Below are positions 1,687-25,749 of a stretch of 33,563 nucleotides of DNA, one piece after another (position 1 is the first letter of the stretch; each line of letters starts with the position of its first letter). The stretch is taken from positions 1-33,563 of IMG/VR virus record IMGVR_UViG_3300027779_000091; one strand, written 5' to 3'. This stretch comes from a virus. Position numbers and translations under genes: made by a program. Below the pieces are notes generated by a model. That model was not told the origin of the DNA and made no database searches. It saw nothing but the letters and a program-made list of their open reading frames with translations.

Positions 1687-2564
1687 GTCGTATACACTTA
1701 GCCGGCATTATCCCGGTCGCTAATATAAAGTCAGACTTTAATTTAATGACCCCGGAAGTCTTACTTCCCATAAACGCAGGACTGACGGCGATTCAGAAAT
1801 CAGTCTTTGAATGCGCCATGGCAGGTTGCAACACTATTTGGATTGTTGCTAACGATGATTTAGCGCCCATAATCCGCAAAATAGTAGGCGAATGGGTATA
1901 TGATCCAGTTTATTATTCAAAAATGATTGGCTTTAGTTCGGAACAACGCAAAGAAGTACCTATTTATTATGTACCGGTCCACCCAAAAGACCGCGATCGC
2001 CGCGATTCCTATGGGTGGTCAGTATTATATGGAGCATATTCCGCGTGGAAAGTAGCATACAAAATATCACAATGGGTAACACCCGATAAATATTATGTAT
2101 CCTTTCCTTTGGCAGTCTATGACATATATAGTATTCGTGATTATAGGAAACTAATCAATCACAAGGAAAACAACTTTCTTTTAAGCTATGACGGCGAAAC
2201 TGTCAAAAACAACAAACCAATAGCATTCACATTCACAGGAGAAGATTTTAAGAAATGCCGACAACACATAAACAAAATAACCACAAGGGAATATTTACCC
2301 CCTTTACCAGACCAGCAATACCCCACCAAGAAACGACCTCTATCCGAGAGATGGAGCGCTCGTCAATTCGAATTCCAGCAGATATTCGCGAAAGTGAACG
2401 AGTCGACCGCACACATACATCCTCTTGAGTGGTATTACGATATCTCTACCTGGGAGGGGTATCGCAACTTTCATGCGTCAGATTTTTTTATAGAAACACC
2501 GCCAGAACACTTGACAAAGCCTCGCAAACACGTTAAAATACCATATGATTCGGAGGGATTATGA
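1683..2564 (+). CDS. Putative nucleotidyltransferase-like protein (NTP_transferase fold)
   Basis: 293 residues. The N-terminal part reads like a sugar-nucleotidyltransferase fold: an initial strand AGIIPVA, then LLPINAGLTAIQKSVFECA, then AGCNTIWIVANDD, the order seen in GlmU/RmlA-type enzymes (strand, P-x-n-G-pliq-sie, aG-n-I-i-v). The signature G-x-G-T-R-x-x-P-x-x-K is not present in canonical form, so activity is uncertain. The middle and C-terminal parts (aromatic-rich, HIHPLEWYYDIS) are not recognised. Start ATG overlaps the previous stop as ATGA. The gene ends in the ATGA start of dnaE, whose ribosome site CGGAGGG lies in its last codons. Confidence 0.5.
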   Translation: MSRIHLAGIIPVANIKSDFNLMTPEVLLPINAGLTAIQKSVFECAMAGCNTIWIVANDDLAPIIRKIVGEWVYDPVYYSKMIGFSSEQRKEVPIYYVPVHPKDRDRRDSYGWSVLYGAYSAWKVAYKISQWVTPDKYYVSFPLAVYDIYSIRDYRKLINHKENNFLLSYDGETVKNNKPIAFTFTGEDFKKCRQHINKITTREYLPPLPDQQYPTKKRPLSERWSARQFEFQQIFAKVNESTAHIHPLEWYYDISTWEGYRNFHASDFFIETPPEHLTKPRKHVKIPYDSEGL

Positions 2565-5500
2565 ATCGTATAAATTCAAAAATTAAGTTCGTTGGGCTTC
2601 ATGCACATTCTGTTGCAGGCTCTATCTTTGATGCCATCGGGTATCCGCAAGCACATATGGATTTTGCATATGACAACGGGTGCGAAGCACTGGCACTAAC
2701 CGACCACGGGAACATGAATGGCTTAGCCTATCAGGTATTGCACGCGAAGAAGATGCAAGAAGCGGGTAAGGAATTCAAGCCAATCTTTGGCTGTGAAGCA
2801 TATTTCACCCCTTCTATTGCCGAATGGCATGATGCTTATAATCAAGCGATGGAAGACAAAAAGAAAGCCCGCTCCATTAAGAAGGATGAGCAGTCAGGCG
2901 CAACCGTCGAAGACGAAGGCGATAGCAAGAAGATTCAAGGAATCCTCAAGCGGCGCCGCCACCTTGTCCTGTTGGCTCAAAACCAGACAGGACTAAACAA
3001 TTTGTTCAAGCTTGTCTCGGAGTCCTACAAGGCGGAAAACTTCTATCGGTACCCGCGTATTGATTACGCGCTACTGAAGAAGTACAACGAAGGTATTATA
3101 GCGTCCTCAGCATGCCTAGGCGGCGTTTACGCTGGTAACTACTGGGAACACCGAGAGGAAGGCGCCGAAGCCGTCCTAGAAGCAATGAGAGAGTCTACGA
3201 GGCAAATGGTTGATATCTTCGGAGATCGCTGGTACGCCGAGATTCAATGGAACAACATTAAAGAGCAGCATGAACTAAACCAATACGTTATTCAGGTTGC
3301 CGAAGAGTTTGGCGTCGAACTGGTGACGACCGCCGATAGCCACTATCCCAACCCTGATGCCTGGAAGGACAGAGAGCTTTACAAGCGCCTTGGTTGGCTT
3401 GGTAAGGGCCGCCCATCCTGGGCAGAAGACGAGTCTCAACTACCTGAAGGCGTTGAAGAAATTGGATACGAGCTGTATCCGAAGAACGGCGATCAGATGT
3501 GGGAGAGCTATAAGCAATACTCCGATGAGCAGGGCTTTGAGTACGACGATGACTTGGTTATGCAGAGCATTGAAGAGTCACACCGGATTGCGTTCGATCG
3601 AATCGAGTCCTTTTTGCCAGACAACACAGTGCGCTTACCAGAGTTTGTGGTCCCCGCGGGCTTCACCGCAACGCAGGCACTTGTTAATTTTGCTTTGGAA
3701 GGGCTGAAGGGGCGCGGATTTCATACGAACAAGGAATACACAGACCGCCTGCGCCGAGAGTTGGGAGTGATTGATGAGCGAGGGTTCTCAAAGTATTTCC
3801 TGACGATGAAGTCGATTGTTGATGTGGCCACAGATATGATGTTAGCCGGCCCCGGTCGTGGTTCCGCCGCTGGTTCTCTAGTGGCATACGCCCTGGGGAT
3901 CACACAAGTAGATCCGATCAAGCATAGGCTCCTGTTCTCTCGCTTCCTGCGCTCCGATGCCTCGGACTATCCTGATATTGATTACGACGTATCAGATAGT
4001 ATGGCTTTGAAAGAGAAGCTGGTTGATATGTGGGGCGCCGACTGTGTTGCTCCAATCTCCAACTGGAATACACTGCAGCTGAAAAGCTTAATCAAGGACA
4101 TCTCTAAGCTTTATAATATTCCCTTCACTGAAGTCAACACAGTTACTTCTATCATGATGAGAGAGGCACTGCCAGAAGCCAAGAGGAAGCACGGTATCAA
4201 GTCTGGTATCTACGCCCCCACCTGGGAAGAAGTCATGGAGTTCTCACCTTCGCTTCGTAAGTATCTGGCTATGCATCCAGCAGTTAAGACACACGTTGAG
4301 GGTTTAGTTGGACAAGTTCGCTCTTGTTCTCGACACGCCGGCGGCGTTGTTATCGCTGAGAATCTTGATCAGAATATGCCGCTGATCAATTCAGGTGGTG
4401 TGCGACAAGCCCCATGGGCTGAAGGACAGAACGTCCGACACCTTGAGCCGATGGGCTTTATTAAATTCGATTTACTTGGGCTCTCCACCCTCAAAATGAT
4501 GGAGGGGTGCATCGAGCATATCCTGCGCCGCCATCATGGCGTCGAGAACCCAACGTTTGCAGAGGTGTTAAACTATTATAATGAGAAATTACACCCAGAT
4601 GTGATTGATATGGACAATCAAGAGGTATATGAGAATATCTTCCACGCCGGCAAGTGGGCTGGGATTTTTCAGTTCACAGAGCAGGGCGCCCAAAAGTTCT
4701 GTGTTCGGGCAAAGCCGAGGAACATCATTGATGTGTCAGCTATCACCTCTATCTATCGACCGGGACCCTTGGCTGCGAACGTTCACGATGAATATGTGGA
4801 AGCCAAAGAGAGCCCCCACTATATCAAATATTTGAATGATGACGCACATGATATCACACAGGAAACATTCGGTTTCTTGATCTTTCAAGAGCAGATTGCA
4901 CTACTGGCACACAAGCTCGGCGGTCTAACCCTGGATGAAGGCAACATGCTTCGCAAGGTGCTGACTAAGAAGGGGACAGGCAAGGGATCCGTGAAGGGTA
5001 AGTTGCACGATAAGTTTATCTCCGGCTGTCTTAAGAATAAGATTGCGAGAGACGAGGCGCAAGCCTTGTGGGACAAGTTTGAGTACTTCTCGGGATATGG
5101 ATTCAATAAGTCTCACGCAGTATCGTACAGCATCATCTCATTCCAGTGCGCTTGGCTGTGGAACTACTACCCGGCTGAGTGGATGGCAGCATTCTTAGAC
5201 AAGGAACCAGAGAGCAGGAAAGAGAAGGCAATTAATATCGCCAAGCAGTACGGCTTTGACATCGCACCGTTGGATGTAAACAAATCCGGAACCGTGTGGG
5301 AGATTAGCTCCGACGGGAAGACTCTTATCCAGCCGTTAACCTCTATTAAGGGTCTTGGCATGGCAGCAATCAATCAACTGCTGGATAATCGACCGTTCAT
5401 GAACGCGGAAGACTTATTATTTCGAGAGGGGGTCTCCTACAGTAAGCTTAACAAGAAAGCACTGGACGCTCTATGCCGCGGCGGAGCCTTAGATAATATC

Positions 5501-5992
5501 GTTGATGATCGGTTCAGCGGACGCAAACACTTCTGGTCTGCTTGTGTCGTTGAGCGCCCAAAGAGCCTCAAGAAGTTTGCAGAAAATCTTGAACTCTACA
5601 GCCCAGAGGGAGACTTTACCGAGGAAGAGATCATTCAATTCAAGACAGAACTTACAGGAATATTCCCAATGAACTTAGTCATTACTCCGGAAACAATACA
5701 GAAACTTCAGGATAAGTTTGTCCCTCCCATCTCAGAATACGATTCTTCGCTGCAGCTGTGCTGGTTTATTCCTAGGAAGATCGTGCCCAAGAAGACAAAG
5801 AATGGGAAGGACTACTGGATCGTTGAAGTGATTGATTCCAACAACGAACTGACACGAATTCGATGTTGGGGTGTCAAGCCCTCGCGAGACCGAATACACC
5901 TTAACCGACCGTATATGGCAAACCTCAAGTACGATCCTAACTGGGGATTCAGCACCTATGCTATCGGTAAAACATTTCGGCAACTAGGATAA
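2561..5992 (+). CDS. dnaE: DNA polymerase III alpha subunit (DnaE-type replicative polymerase)
   Basis: 1143 residues, close to the 1160 of E. coli DnaE. Domain order: PHP domain (about 8-300), palm/thumb with GRGSAAGSLVAYALG, the catalytic PDIDYD block (Asp472, Asp474), FDLLGL (Asp637 as third catalytic Asp), fingers with GYGFNKSHAVSYS, then a C-terminal OB-like segment (KNGKDYWIVEV). All nine usual PHP metal ligands seem present (His14, His16, Asp24, His49, Glu79, His134, Cys185, Asp259, His261), unlike E. coli, so built-in 3'-5' proofreading is plausible. It probably replicates the phage genome. ATG 2561 has a GGAGG site and overlaps the previous stop. Its codons are more GC-rich than those of the flanking genes. 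Confidence 0.97.
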   Translation: MNRINSKIKFVGLHAHSVAGSIFDAIGYPQAHMDFAYDNGCEALALTDHGNMNGLAYQVLHAKKMQEAGKEFKPIFGCEAYFTPSIAEWHDAYNQAMEDKKKARSIKKDEQSGATVEDEGDSKKIQGILKRRRHLVLLAQNQTGLNNLFKLVSESYKAENFYRYPRIDYALLKKYNEGIIASSACLGGVYAGNYWEHREEGAEAVLEAMRESTRQMVDIFGDRWYAEIQWNNIKEQHELNQYVIQVAEEFGVELVTTADSHYPNPDAWKDRELYKRLGWLGKGRPSWAEDESQLPEGVEEIGYELYPKNGDQMWESYKQYSDEQGFEYDDDLVMQSIEESHRIAFDRIESFLPDNTVRLPEFVVPAGFTATQALVNFALEGLKGRGFHTNKEYTDRLRRELGVIDERGFSKYFLTMKSIVDVATDMMLAGPGRGSAAGSLVAYALGITQVDPIKHRLLFSRFLRSDASDYPDIDYDVSDSMALKEKLVDMWGADCVAPISNWNTLQLKSLIKDISKLYNIPFTEVNTVTSIMMREALPEAKRKHGIKSGIYAPTWEEVMEFSPSLRKYLAMHPAVKTHVEGLVGQVRSCSRHAGGVVIAENLDQNMPLINSGGVRQAPWAEGQNVRHLEPMGFIKFDLLGLSTLKMMEGCIEHILRRHHGVENPTFAEVLNYYNEKLHPDVIDMDNQEVYENIFHAGKWAGIFQFTEQGAQKFCVRAKPRNIIDVSAITSIYRPGPLAANVHDEYVEAKESPHYIKYLNDDAHDITQETFGFLIFQEQIALLAHKLGGLTLDEGNMLRKVLTKKGTGKGSVKGKLHDKFISGCLKNKIARDEAQALWDKFEYFSGYGFNKSHAVSYSIISFQCAWLWNYYPAEWMAAFLDKEPESRKEKAINIAKQYGFDIAPLDVNKSGTVWEISSDGKTLIQPLTSIKGLGMAAINQLLDNRPFMNAEDLLFREGVSYSKLNKKALDALCRGGALDNIVDDRFSGRKHFWSACVVERPKSLKKFAENLELYSPEGDFTEEEIIQFKTELTGIFPMNLVITPETIQKLQDKFVPPISEYDSSLQLCWFIPRKIVPKKTKNGKDYWIVEVIDSNNELTRIRCWGVKPSRDRIHLNRPYMANLKYDPNWGFSTYAIGKTFRQLG

Positions 5993-5995
5993 AAC

Positions 5996-6601
5996 ATGAA
6001 CGTTATAAAATATTTTAGTCCTCTGATAAAAGAGGCAAAATTAATAGATGATCTACCAACCATCGTTAGGGTGACTAAATTTGATGAGACGTCGGCGAAA
6101 GCGTTTTCAACAGCGGTTATGAAGGCGCAGAATACGGGACAACCCGTCCTTCCCATTATTATCGATAGTTATGGCGGACAGGTATACAGCCTGATGTCTA
6201 TGATATCAGATATCAAACACAGCCGCATTCCCATCGCAACAATTGTCCAAGGCAAGGCGATGTCCTGTGGTGCCATTCTTTTTAGCTTTGGAGCCGAGGG
6301 GATGAGATACATGGATCCTGACGCGACAGTTATGATTCATGACGTTAGCTCGATGGAACACGGGAAGGTGGAAGAATTAAAGGCGTCCGCGGATGAAAGT
6401 GAGCGCCTTAACCAAAAAATCTACTCTATGATGGCAGAGAATTGTGGCCACCACAGAGATTATTTTTTAGATATCGTGCACGAAAAGGGTCATGCCGACT
6501 GGTTTCTTGAGGGAGACGCCTGTAAAAAACACAACCTTGCTAACCACCTACGTATCCCAGAGTTAAAGATTAGAGCCACTATCGATTTTGAATTTAAGTA
6601 A
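5996..6601 (+). CDS. ClpP-like serine protease, complete triad (copy 1)
   Basis: 201 residues, starting 3 nt after dnaE. Family signs: IDSYGGQVYS (oxyanion-loop strand), GKAMSCGAILFS with candidate nucleophile Ser90, MIHDVSS with His115, and ADWFLEGDACKKHNLAN with Asp168 where ClpP has RDxFLS. ClpP is the proteolytic barrel of the Clp machines; phage relatives may instead mature heads or process phage proteins, and no Clp ATPase gene is visible here. Next to the polymerase, a role in replication-protein turnover is equally possible. Not SppA-like in length. Confidence 0.85.
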   Translation: MNVIKYFSPLIKEAKLIDDLPTIVRVTKFDETSAKAFSTAVMKAQNTGQPVLPIIIDSYGGQVYSLMSMISDIKHSRIPIATIVQGKAMSCGAILFSFGAEGMRYMDPDATVMIHDVSSMEHGKVEELKASADESERLNQKIYSMMAENCGHHRDYFLDIVHEKGHADWFLEGDACKKHNLANHLRIPELKIRATIDFEFK

Positions 6602-10741: not shown

Positions 10742-11329
10742 ATGTCCCGCAAAACACTTTTAACTGAAACCCAGGTTCGCCAATTTATGAAGTTGGCAAA
10801 TTTATCACACGTAAGCGATAACCGCCTATCGGAGATGGGGTACGGAGCGCTTCCTGGTGCTCGCGATGAAGACGAAGAGCTTGAAGCTGAACTTGGCAGT
10901 ACCGAGGACGAGTTGGGCGCCGAAGATGCGCTAGCTGATGAAGAGGGCGGAGAGCTTGATGATCTTGAAGGTGACATGGGAGCCGAAGCCGGCGCCGGAG
11001 AAATGGTGTCGGTAGATGATTTTATGAGCGCTCTTGAGAATGCGCTTGAAGATGTGATGGGTGAGCCGACCAGCGTGGATATGGACACCGGTGAGGACGA
11101 GATCGAGGTAGACGCGGAACTTCCCGGCGGACCCGAGCTTGAACTTGATGCGGAAGAGGAAATGGAAGAGCCCATGATGGAAGATGGCAAAAAGGCTTAT
11201 AAAAACGAAGACGAGGTTGTCGCTGAGGTTTCCCGCAGGGTTGCCGCTCGCCTCTCCAAGAAGTCAACCAGAGGCACTATTACCGACCAGTTAGCCGAGC
11301 GAATTTTTAATCGCATTACGGCAAAATAG
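10742..11329 (+). CDS. Highly acidic protein, possible scaffold or virion component
   Basis: 195 residues; AAGGAGA site before ATG 10742. The N-terminus (LLTETQVRQFMKLANL, then SDNRLSEMGYG) has a form I associate with virion-region proteins of marine T4-like phages. Residues about 40-150 are extremely rich in Glu, Asp, Gly, Ala and Met with low complexity. The C-terminal 45 residues are basic and helical (EVVAEVSRRVAARLSKK). An acidic body with a basic capsid-binding-like end is typical of scaffolding proteins, and a ClpP-like gene lies downstream, but this role is inferred. Confidence 0.7.
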   Translation: MSRKTLLTETQVRQFMKLANLSHVSDNRLSEMGYGALPGARDEDEELEAELGSTEDELGAEDALADEEGGELDDLEGDMGAEAGAGEMVSVDDFMSALENALEDVMGEPTSVDMDTGEDEIEVDAELPGGPELELDAEEEMEEPMMEDGKKAYKNEDEVVAEVSRRVAARLSKKSTRGTITDQLAERIFNRITAK

Positions 11330-11391: not shown

Positions 11392-11810
11392 TTTATTTAG
11401 AGAGGTGTATCCTGCAAGCGCTACTATATTTTTTGATATTCATATTTGGATATATAACGTGTAAGACGTTTTATTTTATGAGAAGCACGAACCTCAGCCT
11501 CCGCACTATTAGAATTTCTCATTTAATATATCTATCGGCAATGATCAAGTCCATAGAAAACTTAGCAACCTCACGCGAATTGATGTTGGAGTACTTGTTA
11601 AAGACTGAAAAGTCTTCTAATACTATCACATCATTTACTATGGCATTCGATAAAAATGTCGAACACATAAAGGAAAATTCCATAAAAGTACTCGTTGGGA
11701 CCCACCCAAGATTCTTTAAGGGATATGTAGATTTTAACGACTGGGAGTCATCAATGGTATACCTAACTAAGCATCAGAAAACAGCACTTGAGTTTTGGAG
11801 AACACAATGA
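11385..11810 (+). CDS. Small membrane-anchored hypothetical protein
   Basis: Up to 141 residues. The start is uncertain: GTG 11385 is the longest form but lies in the hairpin with no ribosome site; AGAGAGG (11399-11405) points to CTG 11412, and TTG 11433 is also possible. All forms keep or begin inside one hydrophobic helix (ALLYFLIFIFGYITC), a probable membrane anchor. The rest is a soluble, mostly helical region with KSIENLATSRELMLEYLLK. Family not recognised. ATGA overlap with the ClpP-like gene that follows suggests coupled translation and perhaps a membrane link for that protease. Confidence 0.55.
   Translation: MAIYLERCILQALLYFLIFIFGYITCKTFYFMRSTNLSLRTIRISHLIYLSAMIKSIENLATSRELMLEYLLKTEKSSNTITSFTMAFDKNVEHIKENSIKVLVGTHPRFFKGYVDFNDWESSMVYLTKHQKTALEFWRTQ
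11389..11396 (+). promoter_or_regulatory. CTATTTAT motif
   Basis: Second intergenic copy of the octamer, directly after the hairpin stem and before the AGAGAGG ribosome site. If it is a late-promoter element, it would give a second start for this operon. Guess only. Confidence 0.2.
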
Positions 11811-12466
11811 TAAAAAAGATAAAAGATATAATTGAGTCAGCAATAAAAGAAGAGGGACCTCCACCATCTAAAAAGATGGTGGTGCTGGATCCCGCAGAGG
11901 CGGCAGAGCTGCTAGCCGCCATTCCGCCTGAGCCGGATATGAGAATAATAGGACTTTTCACGGAAGTCTCTGAAGAAAAGAATGCGGAATTAATTCACGC
12001 CCTACTGTATCTTAACGAGCTTAATAAGCTAGCGCCGGAAGAATCAAAAAAACGCCCCATTGATTTTTATATTTCTACATATGGCGGTTCTGCAGACGAC
12101 ATGTTCGGAATGTATGATATGATGCGACAGATCAGAGAAGAGACCGAGATTCATACTATTGGTCTAGGCAAGGTGATGTCTGCCGGCGTGCTCATTTTAG
12201 CTTCCGGTACGAAGGGCAAGCGCAAGATTGGAAAGTATTGCCGAGTCATGATTCACTCAGTCATCGCAGGCAACCACGGAAGCTTATCTAACCTCGTAAA
12301 TGAGATGGAAGCTATTCAGAGAATACAAGAAGATTATATTGAAGCCTTGGTGGCCGAGACCAACATGACGAAAAAGGATATTAAAAATATGTTAGAACGA
12401 AAAGTTAATGTCTATTTATCTGCAGAAGAAGCTGTAGAATTAGGTATAGCTGACATAATTATTTGA
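11807..12466 (+). CDS. ClpP-like protein with Asp-to-Asn change in the triad (copy 2)
   Basis: 219 residues from ATG 11807 (ATGA overlap); in-frame upstream codons lie in the previous gene. Family signs: IDFYISTYGGSADD, GKVMSAGVLILASG with Ser125, CRVMIHSVIAG with His150, and KVNVYLSAEEAVELGIADII. In ClpP the last block reads R-D-x-F-L-S-A, so the catalytic Asp is Asn201 here. The protein may be weakly active or a structural or assembly partner. It differs strongly from copy 1 (5996), with a 40-residue acidic/proline-rich N-terminal addition. Its place after an acidic scaffold-like gene makes head maturation a candidate role. Confidence 0.85.
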   Translation: MIKKIKDIIESAIKEEGPPPSKKMVVLDPAEAAELLAAIPPEPDMRIIGLFTEVSEEKNAELIHALLYLNELNKLAPEESKKRPIDFYISTYGGSADDMFGMYDMMRQIREETEIHTIGLGKVMSAGVLILASGTKGKRKIGKYCRVMIHSVIAGNHGSLSNLVNEMEAIQRIQEDYIEALVAETNMTKKDIKNMLERKVNVYLSAEEAVELGIADIII

Positions 12467-12475
12467 GGTTTTCGA

Positions 12476-14065
12476 GTGTCTGAACTAAAAAACATATTAA
12501 GAGAAGAATATACGAAGATGGCGAACACCATCACGCCGGATAGCTTGATGAGCATGGTTGAAGAGATCATGAGTATCTCACTTAACCCTCTCACAGAAGA
12601 GAAGGGGTATGAAAGCTTCAGCGTCCATCTCTCGCTCCCCAGACTAACACCAAACGAATCGTGGGGCAAGCCAGGTAGCCAATCAAGGGAAGACATAGAT
12701 AGAATTTTTGCCTCCATCACGAGAAAACCTAGCATCCAGGCTCGAATCGATCATGTCAACAGCTTTGCTGACCCTGCCCGGGCAAAAAGAAAGGGAACCG
12801 GAGATAGATTCAACACAATATTGAACATGATGATGATCTTGGAGGCACTGCAAGCCTGTCTCAACGATTATAGTGAATCATCTTCGGGGTTTGTATTTGA
12901 GGGATTCATGGCGGCGATTACTGGCGGCAAGCAGATCTCTGGTCGCGTCGGAGGCACCTTACCAATTGAAGATTTTGTTAGCGGAGATGATGAGGCTGTC
13001 AGTCTCAAATTATTAAGTCCCAAAACACCCATTCACGGAAGCTTTACTAACCTTATTGATTACTTGTTTATCCGCGGCGGATCTGGAGTAGATAAGATCA
13101 AATATTTAATTGGTCGAAAAAATTCTGACGGTGGCGGCGATAATGTTACTCAGCTGATGCTGCTTGATTTTATTATCAACCGCCGGAACTTTGTAAAGAT
13201 TATGGAGGAGTCCGGCAATCAACATCTTTTTGGCGATCAGGCGCGAGAAATCGAGCGACTGGCTCAATCCTGGCAAGGCGCCCCAGATCAAATAATCGAT
13301 ATGCGCCGGGCTCTTCTTGAGACGCCGGGCTATAACGAAACCTTGGGGATGTTTAAGAAGAATGTCGATGATGAGGGCACCTTCAACTCTGATGCTAGCG
13401 CACCCAAAGATCCTGCTGTAAAGCAGGGACAATACACGGCAGAAAAGGCAAGAGCAGATAGAATTTCAGCGCGCAAGCAAGGCTTTGCTACAGCCATCGC
13501 AGGCAAAGAGCCTGATTTTGAAAGCTGGCTCGCAGCACACCCCCAACTGAAAGAACCTGAACAGAAGAGAGCCCTTAGCGCCGCACAGAAGACATACAAC
13601 GCTGGTTATGCTGAGGCTACACCCAAGACGCCAGAAGAACCACAACAATTTTCCGAATCTTACTTTGGAGAGTTCCACGAAAGAGAGAAGCTTATGATAG
13701 AACAAGAGCGCCAAATCATGGAAGCTAAAGGCGCATCCGGCGGTACGCAGTGGTCGATCAGCGCAGCCGCAACTGAAAAGTTAGCCAATATTGCTGAGGT
13801 TGAGTATTATGGCGAGATTAATCTGTCTGATAAGAATATAAAGGAATGCGCTGACATCTATATCGAGAAGATGGGAGAAACCCTGGTGACTTTGCTGAAG
13901 ACGACGGAAGAGTTCACTAAAAATATTGGTAAATACTTCAGCGCCGACCGCCGTTCCACTGCGATGAATGCAAACAAGCAAGCCCAAACGGATGGTCAAG
14001 AAGTAGTAAACTTGCTGGAGAAAGACCAGAAAGATGCCGCCACAAACACAAGCGACGATCTTTAA
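12476..14065 (+). CDS. 529-residue phage protein, possible nuclease-like core
   Basis: GTG start at 12476 with TTGAGG about 7 nt upstream. The N-terminus (LKNILREEYTKM) is a short amphipathic helix. The core (residues about 100-250) contains GFVFEGFMAAITGG, TLPIEDFV and AVSLKLLSPKTPIHGSF. The Asp-then-S-L-K spacing recalls the PD-(D/E)xK nuclease fold, but this is by eye. A low-complexity, lysine/alanine-rich middle (about 290-400) leads to a helical C-terminal domain (about 420-520). It lies between the ClpP-like gene and groEL. I cannot name the function; a virion or DNA-handling protein is likely. Confidence 0.7.
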   Translation: MSELKNILREEYTKMANTITPDSLMSMVEEIMSISLNPLTEEKGYESFSVHLSLPRLTPNESWGKPGSQSREDIDRIFASITRKPSIQARIDHVNSFADPARAKRKGTGDRFNTILNMMMILEALQACLNDYSESSSGFVFEGFMAAITGGKQISGRVGGTLPIEDFVSGDDEAVSLKLLSPKTPIHGSFTNLIDYLFIRGGSGVDKIKYLIGRKNSDGGGDNVTQLMLLDFIINRRNFVKIMEESGNQHLFGDQAREIERLAQSWQGAPDQIIDMRRALLETPGYNETLGMFKKNVDDEGTFNSDASAPKDPAVKQGQYTAEKARADRISARKQGFATAIAGKEPDFESWLAAHPQLKEPEQKRALSAAQKTYNAGYAEATPKTPEEPQQFSESYFGEFHEREKLMIEQERQIMEAKGASGGTQWSISAAATEKLANIAEVEYYGEINLSDKNIKECADIYIEKMGETLVTLLKTTEEFTKNIGKYFSADRRSTAMNANKQAQTDGQEVVNLLEKDQKDAATNTSDDL

Positions 14066-14127: not shown

Positions 14128-15711
14128 ATGAGTCGAGCATACGACGACAATCAAACACTGCAACAAAAGATATTAAACGGGGTCAACAAGCTAGCTGATA
14201 ATGTAGCCTCTACGCTTGGACCACGTGGTAGAAATGTCTTACTTAAAGAAAAGGGTGCCACTCCCTTCATCACAAAGGACGGAGTAACAGTTGCTCACTT
14301 TGTCGCCTTAGATGACCCATTCGAAAATGCGGCAGCTGAAATTATTAAGCAAGCCGCGGTCGAGACCAATGCCACAGCCGGCGATGGCACCACCACAGCG
14401 ACTGTTTTGGCTCGAGCCATACTTCAGGAGTCGCAAAAGTATGTGGCTTCTGGAGTTTCGCCCATTGAATTGCAGCGCGGAATCAACCTGGCATGCAAGG
14501 AAGTGTTAGTCAATTTGTCCAACCTATCGCTGCCGGTTACAAGTATTGAGGATATAAAACATATTGCAACTATCTCAGCAAACAATGATAAAACAATTGG
14601 AAATTTAATTGCCATGGCAATCGACCGGGTAGGACAAGATGGCTCGATTACCATTGAAGAGTCAAGGTCTGTTGAGACATCAGTGGATATAGAAGAAGGC
14701 TTCAAGATCCGTGCTGGCTATTGCGCCGGCGCATTTATCACCGACGAGAGAAGATCGATGATGATACACGAAGAGCCTCTGATCCTGGTGACGGACTATA
14801 AGATAGATTCTATTGATAGTATCTTGGCTACTTTAGAAATGGTGGCGAGAGAATCTCGACCTCTGATAGTTATCGCTGAAGATATAGAAGGGCAAGCGCT
14901 TGCTGCATTGATAATGAACGCACTACGTGGAACACTGAAAGTTGCCGCAATCAAAGCCCCGGACTACGGAGAGAAGAGAAGGAGTATACTAGAAGATATT
15001 GCTGTTTCGGTGGGCGCCACCTTTATCTCTCGGGCATCCGGCATCAAGCTAAAGGATACTCAGTTAAAAGATTTAGGTACGGCCAAGTTTATCGAAAGCA
15101 ATAAATATGCCACAACGATTGTAGGCGGCGCCGCAGACCACGACGAGGTGGAACGTCGAATAGAAGCTCTGAAGATGGACATTCAAAATACCGACAAACT
15201 AGATGAAGCTGCCGCCATGCAAGATCGCATAACGAGATTGGTCTCCGGCGTGGCAGTCATCCGAGTCGGCGGAGCCACCGAAGTAGAGATGACCGAGAGA
15301 AAACACCGAATCGAAGACGCGCTAGAGGCAGTGAGGTCCGCACAAGAAGAGGGCATAGTCCCGGGCGGGGGTACATCTCTTCTAAGGGCTGCAGAAACAA
15401 TTGTAATAAGGTCCGAGGGATCTTCATCAGATATAGGCATAGGCGCTGTTGTAATAAGACAAGCCTGTCGTGAGCCCATTCGACAAATGGCGCTAAACGC
15501 TGGAGAATCCTTTGATCTAATTATTGATAAAATATTAGCAAGTGACGAGAATGTGGGTTGGGACTTTCGAAACGGCGAGCTTGTTAACTTAATTGAAAAG
15601 GGAATTATTGACCCGGTCAAAGTCACGAAGACAGCATTACAGAATGCCGCCTCGGCGGCAGGCACACTAATGACAACAAATTTTGGCATCATCCAGACGG
15701 AGGATAAGTAA
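14128..15711 (+). CDS. groEL: GroEL-type chaperonin (Hsp60)
   Basis: 527 residues, full length except for the Gly/Met tail. ATP-site blocks: STLGPRGRNVLL, KDGVTVA, GDGTTTATVLA (Asp86, equal to E. coli Asp87), GGATEVEMTERKHRIEDALEA (Asp397, equal to the hydrolytic Asp398), and PGGGTSLLRA. The apical domain keeps IAEDIEGQALA and VAAIKAPDYG, but the substrate-side segment GYLSPYF of E. coli is GYCAGAF, so substrate choice may differ. GroEL folds proteins in a ring closed by a GroES-type lid; no groES is seen here, so host GroES or a distant phage lid is needed. It probably folds capsid or tail proteins. Confidence 0.98.
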   Translation: MSRAYDDNQTLQQKILNGVNKLADNVASTLGPRGRNVLLKEKGATPFITKDGVTVAHFVALDDPFENAAAEIIKQAAVETNATAGDGTTTATVLARAILQESQKYVASGVSPIELQRGINLACKEVLVNLSNLSLPVTSIEDIKHIATISANNDKTIGNLIAMAIDRVGQDGSITIEESRSVETSVDIEEGFKIRAGYCAGAFITDERRSMMIHEEPLILVTDYKIDSIDSILATLEMVARESRPLIVIAEDIEGQALAALIMNALRGTLKVAAIKAPDYGEKRRSILEDIAVSVGATFISRASGIKLKDTQLKDLGTAKFIESNKYATTIVGGAADHDEVERRIEALKMDIQNTDKLDEAAAMQDRITRLVSGVAVIRVGGATEVEMTERKHRIEDALEAVRSAQEEGIVPGGGTSLLRAAETIVIRSEGSSSDIGIGAVVIRQACREPIRQMALNAGESFDLIIDKILASDENVGWDFRNGELVNLIEKGIIDPVKVTKTALQNAASAAGTLMTTNFGIIQTEDK

Positions 15712-18493: not shown

Positions 18494-21400
18494 ATGGACA
18501 TTTCTACAGGCAATTGGTTTAGGTATTTACAGGAAGAAGTTTTAACAGAGGGGCTGCGAGACATCGGGTTGCCCGAGGTCATCGTTGATTTTATCGAGGA
18601 AGGCATGCCAAATGCTCCCGAGAAGTCAAAGATGTACGCCGGCAATAACTGGAAAGAACACAAGCTGGGCAACCCCGGCTACATTGAGAGCACTCAAGAT
18701 AATTGGCTGAGCTTCATGGAGCGCAACTTTCGCAATCAGCTTCAAGTTACTCCCCTTGAGCCCCAGCATAGGGAATCACATTTCGTAGCGCGAATCGCTG
18801 CCGTATACGATGAGAACGGAATGGAAGGCGGACCACCCGAGAAGCGCGTAAGGTATGACGTCAAAACCGTTGAGCAAAACAAGAAGATCGCATTCGTCGC
18901 AGAAAATATAAAGCAAGCGTGGGCAAAGCCTGCCGGCACTTGGCGCAAGACATTTATGAAAGCAACGAAGGCACTGAGCAAAGCAGGTGTGCCTTCCGAG
19001 AAGGTTGAGGTGGTCAAAGATGAGTTGCAGCGTAACATGCTGGCTCAGTGGAAAACATACTGGGGCAGATGGAACGAGTTGTTCTCTTGGCTCAACGACG
19101 AACCAACGAACTACGAAATGATCAAGGGCGAAGAAATTAGTATCGCCTACGACACAGCGATGGAAGACCTAAACAACAAAGAAGATCCAGACGAGATCAT
19201 CCACACATTTGAGGACGGCTCGTACTGGTATAACTTACAGGTATCTAACTGCCCCGTAGAAGGCGAGCGAATGGGACACTGTGGCTCTGACACTCGCGGC
19301 ACCCTTGTGTCACTACGCAAGCGCCAGAGCAAGCGCAAAGCATCCTCTTCCTATATCACAATGACTTGGGATGGTGAGACACTTTACCAGATCAAGGGGC
19401 GCAACAACGACGCACCTCCACACGAAATGTGGGATCACATCGAGTGGTTCATCAGAAATATGGATATCAGCAGCGTCGAGGAAACAGGTGAACACTCTAA
19501 CGATCACGAAGGCTTCCAAGAGATGAATGAATATCTCCAAGGCCGCAACCAAAGCGTTAGATTCAACGGCGCCATCGATATAGACGCAATCCAAGAGGCG
19601 ATAGACGAGGTTGTCAACGACTACGACGGCGAGAACTCATCGATCTATGGAGAAGTCACTGGACCAGAGGATCACGGTGGTGACTACACCGCTATGAACA
19701 TGAGCGCCGAATGCAGCATTCAGATTAACTTGGGCTGGAAGGGTTTTAAAGAAGGTGACGGGGACTTCATCCCGACATTTAGTATGGACGACACGACAGA
19801 GACAGATTATGAGCGTATCCCCCAGAACACTTGGGGAACCTCAGCAAGAGACTTTAACAGCGAACTAGATCTAGACGAGATTGGCTATCCATTGCCCGGA
19901 GAAACCGAGGTTGAATGGTCCGTTGAAATGCTCACAGGCGCCCAGCCAGAGGGTGAAGACATAGACCCAAACTATCCAGCAACCGCACACCTTATAGTTT
20001 CGATCCGCAATTCCGAATATGAAGCTGTTGACGACGAAGACGATGCTCGACGCAATATGGAAAACCTTGCTTCGGAGGTTCAATCAGAGTTTGAAGACAA
20101 GTACGACGAGATCAAAGAAGAATTAAGAGCCAAACTTGCGAAAGAAGGCTATTCCGTCAAGACAGCATATGATCGTGATCGATCAGAGATGAGCGGATAT
20201 GAGTTAGAACACTGGAACATCTACACCGACAAGGCAGGGCTAGAGTTCTGGTTCAGACCAGCAACAGGCGAAAACCCTTCCGACACTCTCGTCGAATACG
20301 GTGAGATGCCGATGGTAATGAAGATGTGGGGGCAACGCCAAGGAGCCGGACACATAGATCACCTATACACCCGCGCCTTTGGAGCGCCCACCGGCACTAC
20401 TCGGGCAGCGGCGCGCTACGGAAACCCCGACCTAGACCGCAATATGGCGAGAACACTGGAGAGATTGTATAAGAAAAACTCTACCACAGCCACAGCAGGA
20501 CAAGAGCAGCTGCCCTTTGGTGATGATTACGCTGCCAAGCACGTGCCAATTGTTTTAGCGAAAGACTCGCGCTTTGTTATCCAAGGCGCCGCCGCATTCC
20601 ACGGACAGAATGGTGCCTATCCTTTGATGCCCATTGGCTGGCGTTATACCATCGGTGTAGACAGCAGCGCATCACCAGAAGAGATAGAGACAGTCAAAGA
20701 CATCGTACGATACTTTAATAAGAACCCTCAGATGGTTATGGATGCCGCCAAAGAGACTATTGATATAGCACTTGAAGGCTCGGTAGCGCTGTCAGAGGCA
20801 ACGAAAGAGAGCGTGCTAACAGGAAAAATAGTGTACGCAACCATCAAGCACATTGATTCGATGCTCGCCGCACAAGTGGCTTCGGGTTCTGACGAATGGG
20901 CAGAGCGCAAGGTAATGATAGCTAGATGGATCAATCAAAACTTTGAGCAGATGGAAGAAGTGGAGAAGCACGTAGCTTGGTATGATTACCTCTCACCGAT
21001 AAGAAACCAGACATTTAATATGGCTCGCGAAGGCGATATCGAACCCGAAGGCGATGATGCCGGCAGACCAATTCGTTGGAACGAGAAAGTGCAGGATCAG
21101 ATGAAGCGAATGAAAGCATTTGGAGGCACTGTACGAAACTATAGCGGCGTTCAACGCGGAGAGCCACAGGCAGGCACGATGGGGGCGCCGCGCGCAGTAG
21201 GAGAGAGCGTAGAGCAGCAGATTGACAGGATCGATAGATTATTACAAGAAAAAGACACGTCCTATGACCTCCGATTATACAGCATCAAAGCCGATATATC
21301 AATTCAAAAAGAGCTTGGCGGCGAAGTTCAAGAAACTCAGACTGAGATTCGTGGTATCGAGGGTGTTACGACTGTGCGCACGGTGGGGGATACAACCGAC

Positions 21401-22015
21401 ATTGGCACATCACAAGTTGCAACGTATGAAATTAAATTTGAACTTCTAGGAAGTTTAGGTCGTGTTAAATATAGGGACCAAACTCTCATTCCCGGCATGA
21501 TGAAAATTAAGGGATTGAGAATCCTAAGACTCAGCCCTATTCACAGGACGAACGCCCAGGGAACGATTAGAACAGTTAGAGAGGGCTTGTTAAAAGAAGA
21601 TGGCGGCATTTCCAACTTTGGAGGTATGGCCGGCAATCTTGGCGCCTTGCGGAAATCTTATTTCAAGAATAATGTTACCCCTCGTGAAACCATAGATTCT
21701 GTGCTAGCCGATTGGGTAGAAGGAGGTGTTCAGGTTTATGATTCCCCGACAGATACAACTAACATGAGATACCATGTAATGATGCCCGTCGAGGAATTGA
21801 TGCCTTTCATCTCAAGAGAATTTAGAGCGCCAATGGACGCATTTGATGGATTATATCAAAATTTTATTGCCAATGGTGCAGATGCACCTGTCTTTATAGC
21901 CCTGGGAAAGAATGGCAGAGCCAAAGTCACAGGAAACGAAGACCTAATATGGTTTGCAAAGAAGTCGGGCCTTGAAGAATTGCCTGTCTTCTTCAGTTAT
22001 CAAAGGCAGGTTTGA
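18494..22015 (+). CDS. 1173-residue multidomain protein (PcfJ-like and ParB-like parts), possible injected head protein
   Basis: GGAG (18482-18485) precedes ATG 18494. The N-terminus NWFRYLQEEVLTEG resembles a T4 capsid-targeting peptide with an L-x-E/G cleavage site. Around residues 250-320, NCPVEGERMGHCGS, RGTLVSLRKRQ, YITMTWDGETLYQIKGRNN follow the H-C...G-x-x-x-S-L-R...Q-x-K-G-x-N order of PcfJ-like proteins. The middle is acidic and tyrosine-rich. Residues about 905-1010 (KADISIQKELGG, TEIRGIEGVTTVRTVGD, YEIKFELLG) look ferredoxin-like. The end (APVFIALGKNGRAKVTGNED, then LPVFFSYQRQV) follows the ParB/sulfiredoxin order with N-E-D for N-H-R. All domain calls are by eye. The last 800 nt are more AT-rich than the rest. 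Confidence 0.75.
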   Translation: MDISTGNWFRYLQEEVLTEGLRDIGLPEVIVDFIEEGMPNAPEKSKMYAGNNWKEHKLGNPGYIESTQDNWLSFMERNFRNQLQVTPLEPQHRESHFVARIAAVYDENGMEGGPPEKRVRYDVKTVEQNKKIAFVAENIKQAWAKPAGTWRKTFMKATKALSKAGVPSEKVEVVKDELQRNMLAQWKTYWGRWNELFSWLNDEPTNYEMIKGEEISIAYDTAMEDLNNKEDPDEIIHTFEDGSYWYNLQVSNCPVEGERMGHCGSDTRGTLVSLRKRQSKRKASSSYITMTWDGETLYQIKGRNNDAPPHEMWDHIEWFIRNMDISSVEETGEHSNDHEGFQEMNEYLQGRNQSVRFNGAIDIDAIQEAIDEVVNDYDGENSSIYGEVTGPEDHGGDYTAMNMSAECSIQINLGWKGFKEGDGDFIPTFSMDDTTETDYERIPQNTWGTSARDFNSELDLDEIGYPLPGETEVEWSVEMLTGAQPEGEDIDPNYPATAHLIVSIRNSEYEAVDDEDDARRNMENLASEVQSEFEDKYDEIKEELRAKLAKEGYSVKTAYDRDRSEMSGYELEHWNIYTDKAGLEFWFRPATGENPSDTLVEYGEMPMVMKMWGQRQGAGHIDHLYTRAFGAPTGTTRAAARYGNPDLDRNMARTLERLYKKNSTTATAGQEQLPFGDDYAAKHVPIVLAKDSRFVIQGAAAFHGQNGAYPLMPIGWRYTIGVDSSASPEEIETVKDIVRYFNKNPQMVMDAAKETIDIALEGSVALSEATKESVLTGKIVYATIKHIDSMLAAQVASGSDEWAERKVMIARWINQNFEQMEEVEKHVAWYDYLSPIRNQTFNMAREGDIEPEGDDAGRPIRWNEKVQDQMKRMKAFGGTVRNYSGVQRGEPQAGTMGAPRAVGESVEQQIDRIDRLLQEKDTSYDLRLYSIKADISIQKELGGEVQETQTEIRGIEGVTTVRTVGDTTDIGTSQVATYEIKFELLGSLGRVKYRDQTLIPGMMKIKGLRILRLSPIHRTNAQGTIRTVREGLLKEDGGISNFGGMAGNLGALRKSYFKNNVTPRETIDSVLADWVEGGVQVYDSPTDTTNMRYHVMMPVEELMPFISREFRAPMDAFDGLYQNFIANGADAPVFIALGKNGRAKVTGNEDLIWFAKKSGLEELPVFFSYQRQV

Positions 22016-22791
22016 TGCTCGCTTTTTTAAAGAAGCACGCGCGTATTGTAATGAGGGTTGCAGCCTCAACACTGTTCTTCCTTTTTGTGTTTTATAGTGT
22101 TTATAGTCAGTATTCGATACCAAGCAAAAAAGAGATACAAAATAACAAAAACGTCTCCTCATTCTATAATACATCATACCGAAGTACAATTAAAAAGTCA
22201 AGGCTGAGTACGGTGCAGATAATTTCTATGGTACCAGAGGAGGGTTTAATATCCGCTTTTACGGGAACCTATTTTGAAGCCTACGGGGATTTTTTCGTTG
22301 TATCTGTTGCTCACGGTATCCATGGACCTTGTGAATACACAAAAATAGTCTTTGACGACAAATTGTATAGCTGTAAAAAATATATATATGTTGATACCCA
22401 CGTAGATTATTCAATAATACAAATCGATGAGATCCTGGAGCGGAAGCCGATTAAAATACCCCGAGACTTACCTAAAAATAAGCAGTGGATAAAATCGTAT
22501 TCAATTCTCAACAAAGTCGTTTATACGGGCTATCCAAATACCTTGGGTCCCCTTACGATTAGCGGCGAAATAGCCGGCTTTTCGCCATCGCAACATGCCT
22601 ACATGATTTCATATGCATGGCAAGGTTCTTCGGGTTCCGGAGTTTTTGACCATTCAGGCAAATATATAGGTTATGTGGTAGCAATTGATGTTGGCCAAAC
22701 GGAGTTAGGCTTGCAAATCCTACAAGATGTTGTTTTAATTGTGCCGGCATTTAATATTGACTGGACCAAAGTTATAACTGAAGCCGAATAA
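22015..22791 (+). CDS. Membrane-anchored trypsin-like serine protease
   Basis: 258 residues from ATG 22015 (TGATG overlap with the previous stop; AGG site). One N-terminal hydrophobic helix (about 14-30, AASTLFFLFVFYSVYS) after a basic start predicts a periplasm-facing anchor. The body has a chymotrypsin-type triad: SVAHG (His100), HVDYSII (Asp131) and WQGSSGSGVFD (Ser208), with GYPNTLGP between. Length and order match trypsin-like peptidases of the HtrA catalytic part, without PDZ. A secreted or envelope protease in a phage is unusual; it may act on envelope or superinfecting phage proteins. Confidence 0.85.
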   Translation: MLAFLKKHARIVMRVAASTLFFLFVFYSVYSQYSIPSKKEIQNNKNVSSFYNTSYRSTIKKSRLSTVQIISMVPEEGLISAFTGTYFEAYGDFFVVSVAHGIHGPCEYTKIVFDDKLYSCKKYIYVDTHVDYSIIQIDEILERKPIKIPRDLPKNKQWIKSYSILNKVVYTGYPNTLGPLTISGEIAGFSPSQHAYMISYAWQGSSGSGVFDHSGKYIGYVVAIDVGQTELGLQILQDVVLIVPAFNIDWTKVITEAE

Positions 22792-22801
22792 GGAGATAGA
22801 A

Positions 22802-22975
22802 GTGAAAAAAGAAAATTGTAAATTAGACGAGCTATTGTATAAGATAAACACCTTAGAAAATTCGTTAAAAGTTCTAAAAAAACAACTGAACCAGGTGTAT
22901 ACTATATGTGATACTTATTTTTCCGATGATGGAATAGGGTCAGAAAAGGAAAAAGATGATGAACAACGAAATTGA
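22802..22975 (+). CDS. 57-residue coiled-coil-like protein
   Basis: GTG 22802 follows AGGAG (22791-22795) with a 6-nt spacer that also overlaps the protease stop. The frame runs 57 codons to TGA 22973-22975. The protein begins KKENCKLDELLYKINTLENS and continues with a heptad-like Leu/Ile pattern (LKVLKKQLNQVY), ending in an acidic tail. This is a good short gene between well-supported neighbours. Function unknown. Confidence 0.6.
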   Translation: MKKENCKLDELLYKINTLENSLKVLKKQLNQVYTICDTYFSDDGIGSEKEKDDEQRN

Positions 22976-23309
22976 AAAAATTGAGGAGATGGTCGACCCC
23001 GTGTCAACACAGCCGGAAGACCTGAAACCCAAGCGCCCATCGAACCGCGCACCGGAAGGCATCAGAACCTTCACAGTGTGCCGGCAAAGCGATGAAAGTG
23101 GTGTGTCAGGAGAGGGAGTGGTGATAGAAGGTGCCACTTTTGCTACCGGACACACAGTCATCCACTGGTTGACTCCAGCACCACGCGGCTCCATTGCGTT
23201 TTTTGATGCATTTGATGATTTTTTGAAAATACACATCAAACCTCACCCGACAAATCGTACAATTATTACGTTTGAAGATGGCGAGCAAACTATGTATGAT
23301 GGGGGCTAG
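22956..23309 (+). CDS. Conserved phage hypothetical protein (SGVSG...G-TVIHWL type)
   Basis: 117 residues; AAAAGGA lies 6-10 nt before ATG 22956, inside the previous gene (20-nt overlap). After a charged N-terminus the core reads DESGVSGEGVVIEGATFATG, HTVIHWLT, SIAFFDAFDDFLKIHI, TIITFEDGE: alternating strands with one helix. I have the impression this small alpha/beta domain is widespread in phages and actinobacteria with no known function. Single-domain here. Confidence 0.7.
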   Translation: MMNNEIEKIEEMVDPVSTQPEDLKPKRPSNRAPEGIRTFTVCRQSDESGVSGEGVVIEGATFATGHTVIHWLTPAPRGSIAFFDAFDDFLKIHIKPHPTNRTIITFEDGEQTMYDGG

Positions 23310-23317
23310 TTAATAAC

Positions 23318-24211
23318 ATGAAGGTATGGAAGGGTTATATTAAGGCAATCACAGAGCTTGATGGTTATAAAAACAGAATTAAGGATTACGTACCAGATCG
23401 CAATGAATTGCTTGGCCAGGGTGGTCAAGATAACTCGCCACCTTTTACGAAAAAGATGGGTACCCATGTTACCTTTGACAGACAACTAGAAGAAGAAGTC
23501 GAGCCTGAATCTTTCGAAACTCGCGACGACCTTGAATCACGAATTTGGAAAGATAAAAAACTAAGGCACCGAGTAAGAAAACATCTAATGAAAATATCAA
23601 AAGATTTTATTAGTGGATTGCCCGTTCCTGTTAAAATCAAGGATGTAACACTAACCGGCTCGCTTGCAAACTACAATTGGTCAAACTTTTCGGATGTTGA
23701 TTTGCATATTGTGGTAGACTTTCTGGAGATTGATGAGAATTTAGTTTTAGTTAAATCTTTTTTTGATAACGCGCGAATGCGCTGGAACAACACACACAAT
23801 ATTAAAATCCGTGGCTACGATGTAGAGATTTATGTTGAAGATTCCCGAGAAGATCACAAGTCTTCAGGTGTTTATTCAATCTTAAATGATGAGTGGATCA
23901 AAGAGCCGAAGAAGTATAACTCATCGATCGACTTTACGGGTGCCAGAAGAAAGGCTGATGATATAGAATTCCAAGTTAATATAACCGATAACATGATAAT
24001 TGCTGGGAAATATCGCTCTGCTATTAAAAATGTGGACCGCCTTAAAAGAAAAATCAAGAACATGCGCCGCGCAGGACTTGAAAGTCCTAAACAAGAGTTC
24101 TCAATTGAAAATATAGCATTTAAGATTCTTAGAAGAAATGGTATACTGGATCTATTGCAGCAACTAAAAACGCAAGCATATGATAACATGTTAAATATCA
24201 AAGAGGAATGA
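23318..24211 (+). CDS. Nucleotidyltransferase-fold protein with capsid-targeting-like N-terminus
   Basis: 297 residues. The minimal nucleotidyltransferase signature is complete: TLTGSLANYNWSNFSDVDLHIVVD with Gly114-Ser115 and Asp126/Asp128, and third acid at YDVEIYVED (Asp168 or Glu170). Such folds transfer NMP to RNA, proteins or antibiotics (CCA-adding, MNT, kanamycin types). The target is unknown. The start MKVWKGYIKAITEL matches the pattern of the T4 capsid-targeting peptide MKTYQEFIAE, followed by an I-T-E cleavage-like site, so this enzyme may be packed in the head and injected. The C-terminal 100 residues are basic helices. Confidence 0.78.
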   Translation: MKVWKGYIKAITELDGYKNRIKDYVPDRNELLGQGGQDNSPPFTKKMGTHVTFDRQLEEEVEPESFETRDDLESRIWKDKKLRHRVRKHLMKISKDFISGLPVPVKIKDVTLTGSLANYNWSNFSDVDLHIVVDFLEIDENLVLVKSFFDNARMRWNNTHNIKIRGYDVEIYVEDSREDHKSSGVYSILNDEWIKEPKKYNSSIDFTGARRKADDIEFQVNITDNMIIAGKYRSAIKNVDRLKRKIKNMRRAGLESPKQEFSIENIAFKILRRNGILDLLQQLKTQAYDNMLNIKEE

Positions 24212-25491: not shown

Positions 25492-25749
25492 TTGATTGGG
25501 TATCATACTTACTTTGTGGAAGTTACACGTGGATCTTTAGTAAAGTGGGTTACATCTCACGAATCTTATCAGTCAAATGGTGACATTTTAGTCGGGCTGG
25601 ACCCTATATATAAATACGGTGTTGTTATGAAGATTTCCAATAAAGATCCAGATTACTTGGCGGTTGTTTGCTGCGATGACGGCAGATGGCATATTGTTAA
25701 TGTTCACCATGATGATATTCAAATAATAAGCGAGGCAAAAAATGACTAA
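25492..25749 (+). CDS. SH3-like (GDLV family) protein
   Basis: Up to 85 residues. TTG 25492 is the longest start; GTG 25516 gives V-E-V-T-R-G-S-L-V-K-W, which lines up with M-K-V-G-D-L-V-R-W of the family and may be the true start; neither has a strong ribosome site. The family strands YGVVMKIS, VVCCDDGRWHIV and the end IQIISEA are clear. The last codons carry GAGG, the ribosome site of the next gene. Confidence 0.6.
   Translation: MIGYHTYFVEVTRGSLVKWVTSHESYQSNGDILVGLDPIYKYGVVMKISNKDPDYLAVVCCDDGRWHIVNVHHDDIQIISEAKND

Follow-up and report, generated by a model that had tools for sequence, protein, structure and literature searches.

Candidate T4-type capsid-targeting leaders on a nucleotidyltransferase and a giant protein of an uncultured marine phage

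A giant protein and a nucleotidyltransferase (NTase) of an uncultured marine phage are in our judgement likely to be head-packaged cargo which carries a T4-type leader, is processed by an S77 protease and is probably injected. The window, i.e., the whole stretch of DNA that was analyzed, is a fragment of this phage, a 33.6-kb IMG/VR virus record (33,563 nt). T4-like capsid targeting with processing at (I/L)xE sites is well supported by comparative evidence together with one published proteome, and injection into the host is plausible; for this phage itself we infer packaging, cleavage, injection, and substrate. The features of the window are as follows, with a slash marking the predicted cut here and below.

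18494..22015, + strand: giant protein gene (ORF call), 1173 aa, predicted head-packaged cargo, no recognised domain
18494..18535, + strand: giant, capsid-targeting-like leader MDISTGNWFRYLQE with a predicted cut after E14, register as in MKLLLENWRKYLNE leaders
18536..18550, + strand: second possible site of the giant, EVLTE/G (LTE, residues 17-19), with L17, T18, E19, and G20 invariant in eight relatives
23318..24211, + strand: NTase gene, 297 aa, phrog_36119, predicted head-packaged cargo
23318..23356, + strand: NTase, capsid-targeting-like leader MKVWKGYIKAITE with a predicted cut after E13; four close relatives all share W4 and E13
23357..23509, + strand: linker between leader and core of the NTase, in part of low confidence, which contains another possible site, LEE, at residues 57-59 (23486-23494)
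23510..24208, + strand: NTase core, with GS (114-115), D126, D128, and E170 invariant in 16 sequences

In the translations of the window ORFs the NTase starts with MKVWKGYIKAITELDGYKNRI and the giant with MDISTGNWFRYLQEEVLTEGLRDIGLPEVIVDFIEE. Relatives of both proteins begin at the same place, which supports both start codons. The preliminary description had quoted the N-terminus of the NTase correctly; its quotation for the giant is also sound, with the exact start corrected to MDISTGNWFRYLQEEVLTEG and NWFRYL running from residue 7. The I/L-T-E site which it had pointed out in both proteins is indeed present, as ITE-13 in the NTase (residues 11-13) and as LTE-19 in the giant (residues 17-19), where LQE (residues 12-14) is a further candidate. 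Cleavage would thus read MKVWKGYIKAITE/L for the NTase and MDISTGNWFRYLQE/EVLTE/G for the giant.

The T4 internal proteins IPII and IPIII start with the capsid-targeting sequence (CTS) MKTYQEFIAE/A and IPI starts with MKTFKEFTSTTTPVSTITE, as read from the T4 record. Mutagenesis has assigned targeting mainly to residues 4 and 7 and processing to residues 8 and 10, and gp21 cleaves T4 substrates after L/I-x-E (reviewed in PMC9026906). The rule we applied was an aromatic residue, two residues, an aromatic residue, and I/L, followed by an (I/L)xE site. Both window proteins have near the N-terminus an aromatic pair three residues apart followed by a hydrophobic residue (W8/Y11/L12 in the giant, W4/Y7/I8 in the NTase) and an (L/I)xE within about 20 residues (LQE-14 and LTE-19 in the giant, ITE-13 in the NTase), and one leader type is found on unrelated proteins, as the 66 cargo clusters and the leader swapping of the NTase described below illustrate. 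In the NTase W4, Y7, and I8 occupy the exact T4 positions and ITE ends at residue 13, three residues later than the site of IPII and IPIII; the site of IPI also lies further down. The giant has the T4 spacing offset by four (W8, Y11, L12, E14). What these leaders have in common with the CTS of IPI, IPII, and IPIII is the N-terminal position, a length of 10-19 residues, the aromatic-x-x-aromatic-hydrophobic face, the (L/I)xE site, and unrelated cargoes, to which the relatives of this phage add an S77 protease in a T4-type head. They differ in that the main marine class, MKLLxENWRxYLxE, has the W first and four extra residues in front, in that the marine cargoes are far more numerous and varied and include enzymes, and in that several leader genes often stand in tandem. 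The leader represents a variant of the T4 CTS that is in wide use. We found no earlier description of such a leader in the literature searched, subscription papers and preprints lying outside the search; for cyanophages only a T4 review came up.

The giant gave no significant match in profile searches against Pfam, PHROG, and PDB, no known polyvalent domain was detected in it, and its AF2 model (pLDDT 40) was of no use. A PcfJ-like impression (MGHCG...SLR) received no support from PF14284. Relatives of the giant were found in IMG/VR only, that is, none was detected outside these phages. The N-terminus is kept in 12 of 12 relative loci, W8, Y11, L12, and E14 of the leader are invariant in eight relatives, and the first 60 residues are the most conserved block of the protein, with 93% identity versus 64% for the rest. 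Directly after the giant gene lies a gene (22012-22791) for a trypsin-like protein that has a hydrophobic stretch at its N-terminus; it stands beside the giant gene also in the related genomes G001 and G003.

The NTase matches the profile of phrog_36119 with an E value of 1.2e-42 and scores 18 bits against Pfam NTP_transf_2, under the cut-off of 21. The GS...DxD active site and a further acidic residue are present, and since G114, S115, D126, D128, and E170 are invariant in 16 sequences the NTase looks active. A fold search returned antibiotic NTases, CD-NTases, and MNT antitoxins, all weak and with poor global superposition. In the AF2 model the leader helix spans residues 2-31, pLDDT is below 50 at residues 26-62, and the core follows; a second LxE (L57-E58-E59), which is invariant in four relatives, lies in the low-confidence stretch.

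The four closest homologues of the NTase keep W4 and E13 while the residues between them vary, position 11 being I, V, or L. At least 526 homologues were found by the scan, and 72 non-redundant N-termini among the matches listed were compared. Their leaders differ, examples being WRDFVDSIQE/L, WQDFLTE/S, MKLIMENWREYLDE/K, which is of the MKLLxENWR type, and MKRQLQTFKEFIEE/A, which is close to T4; many homologues have no leader. Leaders that are swapped or absent on the same NTase core mark the tag as modular. The resemblance of the NTase to the T4 peptide might be due to chance, the N-terminal helix having another role, and the shifted register of the site as well as the homologues without it would fit this reading. 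We consider it improbable, however, because 25 of the 72 homologues compared among the matches listed fit the T4-derived CTS pattern while shuffles gave 0.5 on average and 3 at most, and because some NTase cores carry the MKLLxENWR-type or the almost T4-like leader. A linker like GPQ..GGAPF....SKSAPP follows the leader in two of the NTases, and a similar post-leader linker is present in an unrelated protein of the related genome G004 (3226-5160) which has a HELVHH (zinc-protease-like) motif.

Leaders of this kind are not confined to the giant and the NTases. G001 (194 kb) has nine such starts, for example MKLLLENWRQYLNE/S, MKLLIENWRRYLSE/E, and MSEMKVIIERWDRYINE/D. We scanned IMG/VR for the codons of MKLLxENWR, so that only residues 1-9 were selected, and obtained at least 120 stretches; among the matches listed there were 98 unique complete leader ORFs, falling into 66 clusters unrelated by BLASTP. 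In this listed set residue 11 is Y, F, or H in 95 of 98, residue 12 is L, I, V, or M in 92 of 98, and residue 14 is E in 80 of 98; E is at position 15 in 11 of the 18 others, and nine of these 11 have L two residues earlier (YLLTE, YMLKE, FILTE). Again among the matches listed, leader conservation ceases after the E of this unselected (L/I)xE. A protease that reads L/I at P3 and E at P1 would account for an (L/I)xE end that is kept across insertions, which would not be expected of a fixed helix. The cargoes match GNAT acetyltransferase, zeta toxin, NUDIX, RNase T, protein kinase, polynucleotide kinase, and HAD phosphatase, to which a nuclease and unknown proteins are added among the matches listed. 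The pattern is nearly absent from cellular genomes, with 24 matches across 84,980 bacterial and archaeal genomes, one of them a clear N-terminal leader and most of the rest within long ORFs. A tblastn search of annotated phages with a synthetic leader gave nothing meaningful. Since leaders of this type are common to dozens of unrelated enzymes in related marine phages, they probably label proteins for packing along with the DNA and for delivery into the host.

Alternatively, the shared start could be a DNA cassette, either a recombination target or a translation-initiation element, whose peptide has no targeting role. The third positions of leader codons 3-8 are indeed biased, and those of codons 4-7 are unusually uniform (e.g., GAA at E6 in 64 of 66). 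From this codon bias the leaders seem to spread partly as DNA cassettes, by descent or recombination, the residue pattern being what is kept. On the other hand, the DNA upstream of the leader starts shows no conservation beyond a weak Shine-Dalgarno signal, the codons of L12 vary widely, the NTase leaders vary in sequence with the residue pattern retained, synonymous changes usually equal or outnumber replacement changes in the leader of the giant, and the (L/I)xE end survives insertions. A start without targeting role is in view of these observations hardly probable, and we retain the reading of the leader as a peptide tag.

Further evidence comes from the position of the motif within proteins. 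The proteomes of seven related genomes were scanned for W..[YFHW][LIVM].{0,1}.E, the first 41 residues being taken as N-terminal. The motif is N-terminal in 48 of 61 cases, although this zone makes up 14.6% of the positions (binomial P 6e-29), in a set in which G013, G014, G016, and G017 are biased towards the leader as they had been reached via its pattern. Of the remaining 13 cases 11 are inside proteins and 2 near C-termini, and the reversed motif occurs in the same genomes 0 times N-terminally and 14 times elsewhere. G001, G004, and G005, which had been reached via the giant or the NTase and not via the leader pattern, give on their own 16 N-terminal versus 6 internal cases with about one expected, one of the 16 being the orthologue of the giant itself. 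Among all window ORFs convincing N-terminal matches are present only in the giant and the NTase; a third match at 25492 looks spurious. Other proteins with the leader, for which a search of the genome had been proposed, are thus found in the related genomes and not in the window.

A second N-terminal class, MKITKxxLKQIIKEE with a related-looking DLRxILKEEY, is N-terminal in 17 and internal in 2 cases in ten genomes. It occurs at 12476-14065 in the window, at 110, 478, 4102, 192183, and 192947 in G001, at 71214 and 125621 in G004, and at 71018 and 81435 in G005, and it may be another head-targeting leader, one without aromatic residues. The window also encodes an acidic protein (10742-11329) with the start KTLLTExxxRxFMKLA, which has an LTE site at its very beginning; this start recurs in nine of ten other genomes or records checked, the exceptions being G004 and some fragments.

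Experimental data come from the T4-like cyanophages S-CREM2 and S-CRM01, of which S-CREM2 is cultured and distantly related to this phage. Table 3 of the proteome of purified S-CREM2 virions reports ORF156 (126012-126725) with six peptides as a hypothetical protein (PMC10665884); it is a homologue of the window NTase, without a clear CTS. T4-type leaders are found on other S-CREM2 virion proteins, namely SAM hydrolase (MKDFDSFLEE/F), kinase (VKRFDAFLTE/E), cytidylyltransferase (MKNFSSFLTE/A), and a Cas9-like protein (FASFMAE/A). Every one of the four S-CREM2 ORFs with the exact aromatic T4 spacing, counted from the start codon, is listed among the virion proteins (P=0.0036), as are five of six ORFs when L is allowed at position 4 (P=0.0041). 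The authors regard co-purification as possible, and the text of their paper makes no mention of a targeting sequence or propeptides (PMC10665884). In S-CRM01 the kinase, which is cited in that paper as detected in virions (PMC10665884), starts with MISFDQFLSE and the cytidylyltransferase with MKLFNQFFKE. The leaders of both cyanophages differ from the marine class in having the form F-x-x-F-L-x-E. Genes for kinase, small protein, Cas9-like protein, and cytidylyltransferase, all CTS-bearing, form clusters in S-CRM01 and S-CREM2, in S-CRM01 beside the NTase; going by this arrangement the clusters are likely to be a co-delivered set.

Peptidase_S77 (PF03420, the gp21 family) is encoded in G001, G004, and G005. 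Among contigs of at least 150 kb it was present in all seven with a leader and in all four additional ones with an NTase; with G001 and G004 this amounts to 13 of 13 related contigs of that size, the count covering relatives of this phage. The 33.6-kb window holds no head genes and no S77 gene, and the S77 protease of this phage is therefore deduced from the relatives. G001, G003, G004, and G005 encode a gp23-type capsid protein. In the head operons of G001, G005, and G016 the S77 gene is flanked on either side by genes with a leader. Common to the five capsid proteins read is LLRE or LLKE at residues about 58-65, the expected place of the propeptide end. The capsid propeptides (G001, G003, G004, G005, G013) contain LL.KWEKTGLLEG, which was aligned by eye with T4 gp23 (ELLNKWKPLLEG) and resembles the leader LLENWRKYLNE, and the leader may mimic the capsid propeptide in scaffold binding. 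On reading, the window further appears to encode a bacterial-type DNA polymerase III alpha subunit (2561-5992) and a GroEL-like chaperonin (14128-15711); the relatives have a T4-type head.

The leader could also direct proteins to the tail, baseplate, membrane, or host polymerase, or be a degradation tag, since the MKLLxENWR class itself is known from its sequences. The matching T4 head-targeting spacing, the (L/I)xE ends, the leader genes adjoining S77 in head operons, and the CTS-bearing enzymes detected in S-CREM2 virions argue against this, and we regard it as quite unlikely. It is extremely unlikely that the leaders are cut by the ClpP-like proteins of the window (5996-6601 and 11795-12466), as the preliminary description had suggested, for although both have a CLP_protease match and a weaker one to ClpP-type phage head maturation proteases, it is S77 that stands in the T4-type head operon of the relatives, the conserved counterparts in G001 (125904 and 131904) lie some 50 kb from S77, and with S77 in all related contigs of at least 150 kb they are not needed as cutting enzyme. 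Of the earlier idea of head packaging, targeting with (I/L)xE processing is well supported by the N-terminal motif, the unrelated cargoes, the S77-flanking genes, and the S-CREM2 virions, and ClpP is dropped from it.

We therefore propose head packaging by a T4-type leader as follows. In the giant and the NTase a stretch of 13-14 residues at the very N-terminus would serve as leader, whose aromatic/aromatic/hydrophobic face would bind the scaffold core during prohead assembly, so that the protein becomes enclosed in the head. The S77 (gp21-type) prohead protease would then cut after the E of (I/L)xE, in the NTase after ITE-13 and possibly also LEE-59, in the giant after LQE-14 and/or LTE-19. 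The freed proteins would remain in the head with the DNA and probably be delivered at infection, and the NTase, once delivered, would attach a nucleotide to a target in the host. Leaders of this kind would be plug-in tags on many unrelated delivered enzymes of related marine phages.

Known systems resemble this scheme in part. T4 Alt is likewise an enzyme in the head whose short propeptide is removed by gp21 (PMC9026906); it is packaged and injected, but as an ADP-ribosyltransferase it belongs to another enzyme class, and its propeptide has 7 residues. Phage polyvalent proteins (PMC5512222) are likewise large or enzymatic and predicted to be packaged and delivered with the DNA, but they are defined by domain fusions and not by a shared cleavable leader. 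The ejection proteins of the giant phages phiKZ and SPN3US (PMC5694885) are also inner-head proteins with N-termini cut after E, but their propeptides are mostly long and their motifs different (SxE or AxE).

More generally, we lean towards the view that in marine T4-type phages the leader code, aromatic-x-x-aromatic-hydrophobic with an (L/I)xE end, is a plug-in export tag for delivered effectors. The whole delivered effector set would then be readable from the genome sequence alone and, if this holds, would consist of tandem cassettes of NTases, kinases, acetyltransferases, zeta-toxin-like and NUDIX enzymes, nucleases, and giants of unknown function. The leader would also explain in a simple way why kinases, SAM hydrolases, and cytidylyltransferases recur in cyanophage virion proteomes. 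The proteins delivered with the DNA are known for very few uncultured phages; with a leader recognizable in the sequence, hundreds of 'hypothetical proteins' would become testable candidates for proteins that are packaged in the head and act early, in host takeover or counter-defence.
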